From positions 1 to 5,991 of the forward strand of contig USCU01000079.1 of the NCBI GenBank assembly GCA_900553335.1: 5,991 bases of DNA. The letters run 5' to 3'. The stretch comes from an uncultured Ruminococcus sp. GTDB taxonomy: Bacteria > Bacillota > Clostridia > Oscillospirales > Ruminococcaceae. The translations under genes were made by a program, and so were the position numbers. How positions within the stretch are numbered: the stretch's first letter is position 1; each line of letters opens with the position of its first letter. The notes under the pieces are model-generated. The model was not told where the DNA came from. It did no database searches and worked only from the letters and a program-made list of their open reading frames with translations. This document shows, piece after piece, positions 1 through 2,179 of the stretch.

Positions 1-1046
1 GTTGTACTGTCACCTATTTTTTTATTCTTAAATTCCTTGTTATCAGCAAGCCACATTCTATAGCCTGTTACGTTTTGTTTGTTTAAAGCGATTTTGAGAC
101 TTGAATATCCTATTGATGACTTTGATACATTTACTTTGCCAAGCGAAACCGTTTTTGTAGCGCAAGTTAATTCAATCGGCGCAGACTGATATGCCTTTGA
201 TCCGACCGTTACATAGTTTATCACTTTAATATAGTAAGTCTTGTTGTTGGCAAGACCGCTGAAACTAAAAGAAGTTCCTGTTCCTTGAATCTTCTTTGCA
301 TTTTTATAGCTCTTATTGTCCGCAAGATATACTATACTTCCGCTTACACTGCTTTTTTTCAGTTCAATTTTAATCGAATCGTATGTCGCAGATTTGCTTT
401 TTACAGAAGGTTTTGCTACTGATTTTGTTGCGCTTTTAAAATTAACCGCATCAGAATAGTATTTAGTTCCGTCCACGGTCATATATGCATAGGCCTCAAC
501 GTCATAGGTCGTTCCGCTCGAAAGGCTTGCTATGTTTATCGAGTTTTTTGAGCTTGAAAGATCTCTTCCCGAAGCCTTTTTATCGACATCGGTTATTCTC
601 ACTCTATATCCGCTTATTTCACTTTCTGTTTCAAAATTCACAGTAATGCTTGAAATGTCCGATGATGTGTTCTGAAGCCTTGGAATAGCTACAGGCTCTG
701 TCTTTGCAGCAACATATCCGCCTGAAACCGTTTTAGACAATTTTTGCATTGAACCTAAAGCCTTAAAATAATATGTTGTATCAGGCTTTAATCCGTAAAC
801 GGTAATAACCTCTTCATTGCTTGTTGCCGTTTCAGCTTGTGAAAAATCTCTGTTTTCCGAATATAAAATGCTGTAGCTTTTTGATCCTGTATCTGTTAAT
901 GTTACTGTTGCGCTGGCAGAAGTAGTATCAATATCCTTTACATATCCGTTGTGCTGTTCAGCAGATGCATTTAAAACGAAAACCGCTAAAGCAACCACTG
1001 CAGCAGATAATGTTACAAGTCCAACTGTTACTATTTTTTTCAGCAT
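1..1046 (-). CDS. Secreted fibronectin type III repeat protein, N-terminal part (runs off left edge)
   Basis: The frame is open from an ATG at 1046 to the window edge, giving 348 codons with no stop, so the C-terminus is missing. Residues 1-29 form a signal peptide: MLKK, a hydrophobic core (about 5-25), and a likely cleavage site after NASA (26-29). The mature part is built of FnIII-like beta-sandwich repeats, roughly 33-118, 119-208, 209-299 and 300 onward. The usual signature near the end of each repeat is visible: LKPDTTYYFKA (86-96), LSSGTTYDVEAYAY (175-188), LANNKTYYIKV (265-275). Repeats 3 and 4 resemble each other (LADNKSYKNAKKI and LADNKEFKNKKI). The ribosome binding site AAAGGGTGG lies 4 bases before the ATG, and a consensus promoter lies upstream. 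FnIII repeats usually act as spacers or binding modules in extracellular enzymes, adhesins or cell-wall proteins. No catalytic, dockerin or anchor domain is visible here, so the role stays open. It is the last minus-strand gene after the holin-type pair but is separately transcribed. Confidence 0.85.
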   Translation of the reverse strand, partial: MLKKIVTVGLVTLSAAVVALAVFVLNASAEQHNGYVKDIDTTSASATVTLTDTGSKSYSILYSENRDFSQAETATSNEEVITVYGLKPDTTYYFKALGSMQKLSKTVSGGYVAAKTEPVAIPRLQNTSSDISSITVNFETESEISGYRVRITDVDKKASGRDLSSSKNSINIASLSSGTTYDVEAYAYMTVDGTKYYSDAVNFKSATKSVAKPSVKSKSATYDSIKIELKKSSVSGSIVYLADNKSYKNAKKIQGTGTSFSFSGLANNKTYYIKVINYVTVGSKAYQSAPIELTCATKTVSLGKVNVSKSSIGYSSLKIALNKQNVTGYRMWLADNKEFKNKKIGDST

Positions 1047-1075
1047 ATAGCCACCCTTTCTGGTTTTGTAATTAA

Positions 1076-1093
1076 TTTGTAACCATTTGCCAA
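1076..1093. repeat. Imperfect dyad element, copy 1 (possible operator)
   Basis: An 18-base sequence, TTTGTAACCATTTGCCAA, has a partner at 1204-1221 that matches it at 16 of 18 positions, both differences being transitions. The two ends are an imperfect inverted repeat around a 4-base centre. A further TTTGTAA lies at 1065-1071, 11 bases (about one helical turn) from the TTTGTAA in this copy. Its place at the predicted transcription start of the FnIII gene would suit a repressor site. The regulator is unknown. Confidence 0.4.
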
Positions 1094-1095
1094 GA

Positions 1096-1124
1096 ATTGT
1101 AACACTTTCGTTATCGACTGTCAA
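1096..1124 (-). promoter_or_regulatory. Sigma-A-type promoter of the FnIII protein gene
   Basis: On the minus strand, TTGACA (1119-1124) and TACAAT (1096-1101) are separated by exactly 17 bases. Both hexamers are at or one base from consensus. Transcription should start near 1089, giving a leader of about 43 bases before the ATG at 1046. A dyad element (1076-1093) lies across the predicted start point. Confidence 0.85.
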
Positions 1125-1203
1125 GCAAAACCAAGGTTTATTAACCAAATTTTAATATTTGAGGTGCTATTTGAACGATTTATTCTAAAAAAGCGCTCGC
1201 TGT

Positions 1204-1314: not shown

Positions 1315-1353
1315 CCTCAGTTCGTCAAAAAAACACACTGTTAAAATATCACC

Positions 1354-1522
1354 GCGTTGGCAGACATGCGCTGATGCAGAGATAACCTGAGAGAAGATCA
1401 GCGGTACAACCCGCTTTTCGATGAAAAAGGGGTACCTAAGGGAAAACGCAAAGCGAAATGAGCGAAGCTATCAAAGTGAGTGCATTTGTCCTGTGGAGTG
1501 TGGTACGGCAAATCTGCCACGC
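1354..1522 (+). ncRNA. Compact structured RNA candidate: group II intron domain I-like or stand-alone ncRNA
   Basis: This non-coding stretch is less AT-rich than its surroundings and folds as a closed domain. GCGTTGGCAGA (1354-1364) pairs with TCTGCCACGC (1513-1522) in 10 base pairs with one bulged T, across about 150 bases. Inside, CGCTGAT (1369-1375) pairs with ATCAGCG (1397-1403). GTA+CC (1432-1436) can pair with GG+TAC (1502-1506), which places CCTAAG (1435-1440) opposite TGTGG (1499-1503). That is one base from the classical 11-nt GNRA-tetraloop receptor (CCUAAG/UAUGG). The purine-rich joiner GGGAAAACGCAAAGCGAAA (1440-1458) favours the plus strand. The order of the CCTAAGGG and AACG...AAAGCG motifs resembles, from memory, domain ID of group II introns such as Ll.LtrB. 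No intron 5' end (GTGYG), reverse transcriptase or domain V is present, so it would be a remnant. A stand-alone class such as the raiA RNA is another possibility that I cannot test. Structure is well supported, class is not. Confidence 0.5.
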
Positions 1523-1524
1523 TA

Positions 1525-1552
1525 AAACAGCAGACTATTCTGTCTGCTGTTT
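1525..1552. terminator. Hairpin terminator overlapping the holin stop codon, possibly bidirectional
   Basis: An 11-bp stem (1525-1535 with 1542-1552) encloses a 6-base loop. On the minus strand it is followed by TTTTAG, a short T-run partly inside the stem. On the plus strand it is followed by TTATCATT, also weak. The holin stop codon (1535-1537) lies at the edge of the loop, so the last codons are part of the hairpin. It starts two bases after the closing helix of the structured RNA, where an end for a plus-strand RNA would be expected. Confidence 0.55.
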
Positions 1553-1834
1553 ATCATTATCCGTTTTTAAATTTTTCCCTGTAATAGTTTTAATAGTTTC
1601 GTTAAATCCTGTTGATGCCAATCCGCTTATTATACCGATTGCAATAGCCGTTACTAAATCGTTTGCGGGAAAGTTACTCATAGTAAAATACCCCAAAACC
1701 CCTAAAACGGCCCCGCAAGAGCCTGTTATAAGAGGTATAAATCTACTTTTAAGTTTAAATGCTTTAGCTCCTATACCCATAAAATAACAAATTACCACTA
1801 TCGGTACAACTGTCACTAAATTTGAAATATCCAT
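1535..1834 (-). CDS. Phage holin-type small membrane protein (99 aa)
   Basis: The protein has three predicted membrane segments, about residues 4-22, 32-52 and 60-77, with basic residues in the first loop (KAFKLKSR, 24-31). It ends in a short charged, polar tail (TGKNLKTDNDKQQTE). Size, topology and the pattern of a small-residue-rich third segment (AIAIGIISGLASTGFNETIK) fit the Firmicutes phage holin family represented by Pfam Phage_holin_5_2, which oligomerises in the membrane and lets endolysin or other proteins out. The family is assigned from memory and not by a search. ATG at 1834 is preceded by GGAGG (1841-1845) at a spacing of 6. It lies 27 bases after the upstream gene's stop, so the two are co-transcribed. 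No endolysin, tail or other phage gene is visible nearby, so it may be a remnant or a domesticated holin. Confidence 0.7.
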   Translation of the reverse strand: MDISNLVTVVPIVVICYFMGIGAKAFKLKSRFIPLITGSCGAVLGVLGYFTMSNFPANDLVTAIAIGIISGLASTGFNETIKTITGKNLKTDNDKQQTE

Positions 1835-1861: not shown

Positions 1862-2179
1862 TTAAAACCCTGTTTCGTTTGATAATATATCCATGCCTTT
1901 CACACGATTGAAAATCTCTGTTCCTGTTGAGTTTCCGCCAAGAGAATGATAAACGCTGTATAAATTTTCAAAATTTCTCAGCTCGCTTATGCTTACCTCA
2001 CCTTTTGCTATAAGAGCTGTTCCTATGGAAAGTATTCTATCCTGTAAAATTGCTACAACACCGTCCTTTAGTTTTTCCTGCTCGGAAAGCTTTCGCGATA
2101 TTCTCTTATAGCTGTAAGATAAAACGGCAATTGTTCCCGTCAATACGATCTCTCCGATAAGACTTAATATAAATTCCAA
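1862..2179 (-). CDS. Phage-type protein with N-terminal membrane anchor (105 aa), first gene of the holin pair
   Basis: Residues about 3-22 form one membrane segment (FILSLIGEIVLTGTIAVLSY), followed by a basic stretch (KRISRK) and a charged helical cytoplasmic part. The C-terminal half contains the pattern LRNFENLYSVYHSLGGNSTG (67-86). From memory this resembles the 'YHSLGGNGTGT' signature of small proteins encoded beside holins in many Firmicutes phages and prophages, which are usually annotated as hypothetical. Its biochemical role is not known. It may help the holin or be a holin-like partner. Translation starts at TTG (2177-2179): the only ATG in frame is near the C-terminus, while AAAGGAGG lies 8 bases upstream of the TTG. 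The holin gene follows after 27 bases. An intrinsic terminator sits in its leader. Confidence 0.65.
   Translation of the reverse strand: MEFILSLIGEIVLTGTIAVLSYSYKRISRKLSEQEKLKDGVVAILQDRILSIGTALIAKGEVSISELRNFENLYSVYHSLGGNSTGTEIFNRVKGMDILSNETGF

Follow-up and report, generated by a model that had tools for sequence, protein, structure and literature searches.

What is the folded stretch that lies beside the holin operon in this DNA, and how did it come to be there? The window, i.e., the whole stretch of 5,991 nucleotides that was analysed, comes from an uncultured Ruminococcus sp. An earlier note, made from the letters, had described positions 1354 to 1522 as a self-contained structured RNA, either a small RNA gene convergent with the holin operon or a relic of group II intron domain I. 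Our analyses point to another reading, to which we give a probability of about three in four: positions 1317 to 1525 hold one member of a dispersed repeat family, likely an IS1182-type transposon lacking a transposase, which likely sits in a duplicated bidirectional terminator and specifies a predicted four-part RNA on the plus strand. A structured region is real, the particular fold first drawn for it is not the one that homologues share, and the feature is both larger and mobile. The features of the window are listed below, with P1 to P4 denoting the parts of the fold derived from homologues.

3-1148, minus strand: gene for an fn3-domain protein.
1290-1314: left hairpin copy, terminator-type, ACAGCAGC..GCTGCTGT, with an A-run to its left (1284-1290).
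About 1317-1525, plus strand: whole non-autonomous element, with boundaries from 21 copies aligned with their flanks.
1317-1334, plus strand: diverged 5' terminal inverted repeat, TCAGTTCGTCAAAAAAAC, the counterpart of the ends of the copies and of IS1182 elements.
1346-1525, plus strand: structured RNA domain, matched by covariance model R1 at 122.4 bits, the window itself being one of the 24 training rows.
1347-1384, plus strand: hairpin P1, inner stem 1359-1363/1371-1375, loop ACATGCG at 1364-1370.
1347-1350/1381-1384, plus strand: outer stem of P1, TATC/GATA, a re-pairing read from the sequence.
1393-1419, plus strand: hairpin P2, AGCGG (1400-1404) with CCGCT (1411-1415), flanked by GAA/TTC.
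1436-1447/1484-1495 (span 1436-1495), plus strand: helix P3, which encloses a variable domain.
1497-1523, plus strand: 3' hairpin P4, which is also the 3' terminal inverted repeat.
1525-1552: right hairpin copy, terminator-type, AAACAGCAGAC..GTCTGCTGTTT.
1535-1834, minus strand: holin gene, family Hol44 (PF16079).
1862-2179, minus strand: gene located upstream of that for the Hol44 holin; its 105-aa product has no Pfam match.
Elsewhere in the window: an aldolase-like protein (PF00682) and a BNR/sortilin-type protein.

The ends of the element were determined by aligning 21 copies together with their flanks. The copies end sharply, with TCAGTCTGTCGAAAAAG on the left and the palindrome AAGCGTGTCGAC..GTCGACACGCTCA on the right, and the two are inverted repeats of each other. 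The terminal inverted repeats of the copies read TCAGTCTGTCGAAAAAG against the reverse complement TGAGCGTGTCGA-AAAG, and P4 in relatives reads AAGCGTGTCGAC-loop-GTCGACACGCTCA. The repeats have diverged in the window, where the 5' one, TCAGTTCGTCAAAAAAAC, is identical to TCAGTCTGTCGAAAAAG at 13 of 17 positions as counted by eye. The window element sits between two hairpins whose cores are 212 nt apart, and this distance ranges from about 210 to 310 nt across copies. With terminal inverted repeats, target repeats on both sides, no transposase gene and many copies, it has the hallmarks of a MITE.

We searched 297 genomes of the family by BLAST with the window sequence, and 10 of them gave matches. 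Relatives in G184, G155 and G061 (best E values of 1.5e-8, 3.3e-8 and 3.6e-5, respectively) were judged real from the alignments, and matches in the seven other genomes, resting on 19 to 40 nt, were set aside. BLAST with one copy yielded 49 matches in G155, 46 in G061 and 23 in G184, some of which are two pieces of one copy. In the same kind of single-genome search, some 5' and 3' halves of elements lay about 115 to 230 nt apart. Another repeat, TTTTGAATCCC(A/T)CCACCGCGC..GCGCGGTCCCCCTCCCTTTGACAAGGGAGG, replaces or nests in the interior of several same-ended elements of G061 and G155 (loci L151, L154-L156, L159-L161 and L173-L175). Model R1, built from 24 copies including the window, was run against 41 relatives and matched 40 times in G155, 34 times in G061 and twice in G013; the genomes with 40 and 34 matches are 2.4 and 1.5 Mb in size, respectively. 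Presence was patchy, at 3 of 41 and 1 of 41 relatives with E up to 1e-5. Eight further R1-matching genomes besides G001 were not accepted as having the same RNA, as their scores came largely from the ends and a P1-type hairpin, and they were treated as holding elements with other interiors.

Judged by sequence, the genes flanking the copies in G184, G155 and G061 look unrelated; three of the downstream proteins look by eye like phosphoglycerate kinase, CarB and WhiA. The orientation of the genes around 44 elements, based on rough stop-to-stop frames, was mixed and showed no consistent pattern: 12 elements had convergent neighbours, the remaining arrangements accounted for 10, 9 and 7, and 6 were undetermined. 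Through relatives of the window's aldolase we reached L021, a locus of an uncultured Clostridia bacterium whose synteny with the window covers the start of the fn3 gene, the genes of the holin operon and the aldolase gene. The synteny comparison showed that the element is absent there between the fn3 gene start and the holin operon and aldolase, and it was therefore gained in the window or lost in L021. The genome of L021, G001, has a single R1 match of 67 bits away from the syntenic locus. The idea of a single non-coding RNA gene tied to the holin operon does not survive this comparison together with the many copies at unrelated genes elsewhere. As for the holin protein itself, a search of viral contigs gave two loci at 38% identity.

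The reading of the region as a structured element on the plus strand was borne out, and it falls in no known class, with no Rfam match at a gathering score. A search of the whole window with 4227 families at E up to 5 gave nothing over the element, and a search of positions 1250-1600 at E up to 10 gave five chance-level matches, each far below its gathering score, the best of which (E 0.22 and 0.35) were both on the minus strand. Nothing reached a gathering score on six homologue loci, where the model rnk_pseudo, matching part of the L086 copy, and the model rnk_leader, matching outside the L085 copy, stayed below threshold at 26.2 of 55 and 33.1 of 50 bits, respectively. Twenty distant loci had no Rfam match at E up to 0.01. 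BLAST against phages and plasmids, with the RNA and with the 3' palindrome, gave short matches only (E 0.04 or above), and pattern scans of viral contigs and of genome contigs gave none. Our literature searches turned up no description of the element, nor of structured RNAs carried by IS1182 elements.

The copies made it possible to derive the fold by comparison. RNAalifold on an alignment made without structure proposed 43 pairs, 14 of which show double-sided changes. When 56 rows were aligned to R1, 28 of the 43 pairs had changes on both sides and 96.2% of cells were paired; none of 500 shuffles reached any of five measures on this alignment, and slid partners, those at slide 0 excluded, paired in 41 to 51% of cells. 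Double-sided changes are found at eight of the nine pairs of P2, and covariation extends over P1, P2 and P3, i.e., away from the element ends. The copies of G013 (L250 and L253) have re-paired parts of P1, P2, P3 and P4 with other bases, L250 failing at 3 of 43 pairs. The window copy retains 32 of the 43 consensus pairs as counted from the alignment, and it may be a decayed or older copy.

The helices first drawn for the region fared less well. They can indeed be found in the letters, as a closing helix at 1354-1364/1513-1522 (10 of 10 pairs, with one bulge) and an internal helix at 1369-1375/1397-1403 (7 of 7), but on a 24-row alignment of the window and 23 relatives, homologues pair in 64% and 67% of cells, respectively, and three pairs of the closing helix fail in 20 to 23 of the 24 rows. 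Compensatory changes occur at 5 of the 17 pairs (double-sided, in 7 cells), a level reached in none of 500 shuffles, yet the pairing as a whole is unsupported. The closing helix reuses bases that belong to the supported hairpins P1 and P4, and the minimum-energy fold forms P4 instead of it on some of the shared bases, followed by the hairpin at 1525-1552. This hairpin is the terminator-type structure that had been noted just after the closing helix. The fold of the region is also better than that of shuffled sequences (z of -3.08, with 2 of 200 shuffles as good).

Whether these pairs are maintained in RNA or in DNA can be approached through G-U pairs. A pair kept in double-stranded DNA without an RNA constraint would be expected to change to G-U and to A-C with about equal frequency. 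Counting on a single tree of 47 copies, we obtained 46 G-U against 14 A-C events (p 4e-5), or 36 against 11 once P4 was excluded (p 3e-4); the alignment had been fitted to the model, and the model accepts G-U more readily than A-C. On this tree, standard pairs changed to a different standard pair 47 times and to a mismatch 43 times. Nine of the 56 rows had been dropped for this test (an inserted or missing 3' half; one fragment row). The excess of G-U over A-C favours selection on the plus strand as RNA. Covariation and a G-U bias on one strand, as would be expected of a functional RNA, were found in this model-fitted alignment, and the data support the view that the element carries a structured plus-strand RNA that would be under selection at the RNA level. 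A scan of positions 1150-1650 found no plus-strand promoter-like or terminator-like site, and the right hairpin was therefore not scored as a plus-strand terminator; a minus-strand terminator-like site was found at 1318-1286. A TATAAT-like promoter just before P1 in G155 and G061 was considered and dropped, since transcription beginning at the normal spacing from it would truncate P1.

We investigated the hairpins on either side of the element by aligning the flanks of 34 of 51 model matches, namely, full-length ones without L098 and L123, plus the window and L181. Shared hairpin-forming flank sequence with a score of at least 30 was found for 10 of the 34 copies, including the window (AAAACAGCAGCCTATTATTAGCTGCTGT against AAAACAGCAGACTATTCTGTCTGCTGT, score 30), whereas 2 of 1122 mismatched flank pairs scored 30 or more. 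A clear hairpin duplication was not seen in this alignment for the other 24. The element at L207 has an exact 28-bp hairpin duplication. In 15 hand-picked cases, one of which is the IS1182 element L220, the eight positions outside the left hairpin contain on average 4.8 A and those outside the right hairpin 4.6 T, compared with 2.1 A and 3.2 T in the eight positions on the inner sides. The outer A-run and T-run of one bidirectional terminator are thus retained, indicating that the second copy of the hairpin most likely arose on insertion of the element.

Two other loci bear on the arrangement of hairpins. At L182 (G483), a second element seems to begin right behind the right hairpin, and tandem elements are possible. 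L162 and L163 appear to be elements at the same site in two genomes, beside sequence read as rplL; their left and right hairpins are alike within a genome and different between genomes, a pattern that either repeated insertion or conversion between the two hairpins would give.

The ends of the element led to its probable source of transposase. The palindrome end was found in 19 of 394 genomes of the order, at up to 25 per genome, with zero control matches. IS1182-family genes (NF033551) were found in 13 of 28 genomes tried, 4 above the curated cut-off. The ends around these genes were scanned with two mismatches allowed and without a control: of the four above the cut-off, the complete transposons L219 and L220 have the element's inverted repeats at either end, L221 and L222 are not clearly bounded by them, and several partial IS1182 genes have one end close by. 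L219 and L220 carry DDE_Tnp_1_6 and DUF772, and their genomes (G558 and G333) hold other element types. A 32-bp hairpin stands on each side of L220, with differences between its copies in the loop. The clearest arrangement is that of the region L219:1330-3230 of G558, which reads hairpin, IS1182 element, hairpin, shared-end element, hairpin, and all three hairpins contain CCGCCGCATTATAAATGCGGCGG; this tripling probably reflects two insertions at one target. The transposase-less element next to L219 has an interior unlike the window's RNA. G155, which has the window's type of RNA, contains IS1182 as a C-terminal fragment only, at a contig end and beside one element end, and the NF033551 search gave no IS1182 gene in G001 or G061. 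A transposase gene of G184, L180, was rejected as a partner because the shared ends are absent nearby; its wider flank (L229) has a loose end match on one side only. The shared ends and the hairpin duplication in IS1182 elements indicate that the window most likely has a transposase-less IS1182-type element carrying an RNA, and its assignment to this type is well supported.

Elements with these ends are not uniform inside. The distant R1 matches and the loci from the palindrome scan have common ends and differing interiors, L207 and L218 among them. We looked around 19 palindrome loci for hairpins with a stem of at least 5 pairs, both loop forms being built into the search. At five loci, a hairpin of 12-14 bp with the loop ACRUGYG or GCRUGYA lies no more than 330 nt away, at the other 14 it does not, and the same rule gave no hairpin in 70,060 nt of background sequence taken from these loci. 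Eleven of 17 further loci have the loop hairpin, and L181, L182, L189, L191, L194 and L212 do not. The window has the loop ACATGCG but fails the stem rule. Both loop forms also occur in copies of the window's family, which looks like covariation, and our guess is that the loop hairpin has a shared binding partner. Six loci of G558 (L187, L192, L195, L196, L198 and L199) represent a distinct element type that shares the 3' end and has its own predicted fold (GGACAGGAAC..GGTTCCTACC); L187 and L196 had no Rfam match at E up to 0.01. A broader proposal, which we consider doubtful at this stage, is that of a superfamily of non-autonomous IS1182-type elements across Clostridia, with different RNA domains, several having a hairpin with an RCRUGYR loop, that would turn host terminators into RNA genes through duplication of the hairpin and whose RNA would recruit or control a DDE transposase.

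The findings have to be weighed against other explanations of the same locus. It may be that the element is an ordinary MITE, its inverted repeats and palindromes being DNA structures for transposition and its folded transcript having no role. This would account for the double use of P4 as the 3' terminal inverted repeat, and it fits with the existence of same-ended elements with another interior (L207 and L218), the 14 of 19 palindrome loci without a P1-type loop hairpin and the lack of a plus-strand promoter-like site in 1150-1650. However, covariation is found in P1, P2 and P3 rather than at the ends, and G-U outnumbers A-C by 36 to 11 outside P4, making this explanation unlikely. The conserved fold in five genomes plus the window might instead belong to a small regulatory RNA gene of the host, dispersed by transposition and retained for the host's benefit. 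The high copy numbers (40 in a genome of 2.4 Mb and 34 in one of 1.5 Mb), the location of copies beside seemingly unrelated genes and the uneven distribution among relatives (3 of 41 and 1 of 41) argue against it, and we regard it as very unlikely.

Descent from group II intron domain I had been proposed from a receptor-like motif. The pair CCTAAG/TGTGG (the latter at 1492-1496) is present and surrounded by GTACC/GGTAC, and it is one mismatch from what we take to be the 11-nt tetraloop receptor motif. Nevertheless, it is not conserved: the flank pairs in 37 of 115 cells of 23 relatives, which read TCGGGGG/CCCTCGA or TTGGGGG/CCCTCAA at this site, and the motif coincides with the variable outer end of P3. 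As no group II model was listed for the window or for 1250-1600 (at E up to 10), a relic with a tetraloop receptor is extremely improbable.

If the locus is a transposase-less IS1182-type element, its history may be pictured as follows. An IS1182-family transposase acting in trans would join the element ends at the foot of a terminator cruciform and, with joining at this point, gap repair would copy the whole hairpin. The left copy may then shield the element from neighbouring transcription and the right copy may end its transcript. The RNA unit would thereby be fenced by two terminators, each insertion making a small RNA gene out of a host terminator. The RNA is likely kept as an aid to the element's own spread or persistence, and binding of a protein to the P1 loop would be the most probable way for it to act.

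Several known systems resemble this element in part. The RNA MRSC-65-2, as presented in PMC11109978, similarly combines a covarying structure with dozens of copies per genome and suspected mobility. It consists of a single long stem with a UYCCGG repeat, whereas our element has a four-part fold, and the transposon family, ends and target can be named for the latter. This sets the element apart from MRSC-65-2 alone, within a class that has 249 other candidates (PMC11109978). Bacterial MITEs and the pneumococcal BOX, RUP and SPRITE elements, according to PMC10969869, are likewise short and multi-copy, with inverted ends, direct repeats and stable predicted transcript structures. The element described here differs from these as treated there in that whole terminator hairpins of about 19-32 bp serve as its target repeats and its interior is a covarying multi-helix fold with a G-U bias.

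The IS1182 family, which includes IS1272, shares with the element its stem-loop targets and terminal inverted repeats, as PMC5678879 describes them. That paper cites a report that some IS1182 members target palindromes, and its IS1272 model includes, as pathway b, a branch in which the entire stem-loop is duplicated. IS1272 itself is reported to replace its target stem-loop without target duplication (PMC5678879), whereas our element has no transposase and the whole stem-loop is duplicated. The tripled hairpin of L219 and the other duplicated hairpins thus provide sequence examples of the whole-stem-loop duplication drawn as a possible outcome in PMC5678879.

The element would represent a mobile RNA class outside Rfam whose spread could be tied to a named transposon family. 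Structured RNAs inside transposable elements are familiar from omega RNA/HEARO, from the IS110 bridge RNA and from the 5' tnpA RNA of IS200; in contrast to these, the partner found for our element is a DDE transposase. DDE transposases are not known to use RNA, and IscB, TnpB and IS110 elements are carriers of working RNAs. Should the RNA of the present element be active, DDE transposons would join IscB, TnpB and IS110 elements in this group.
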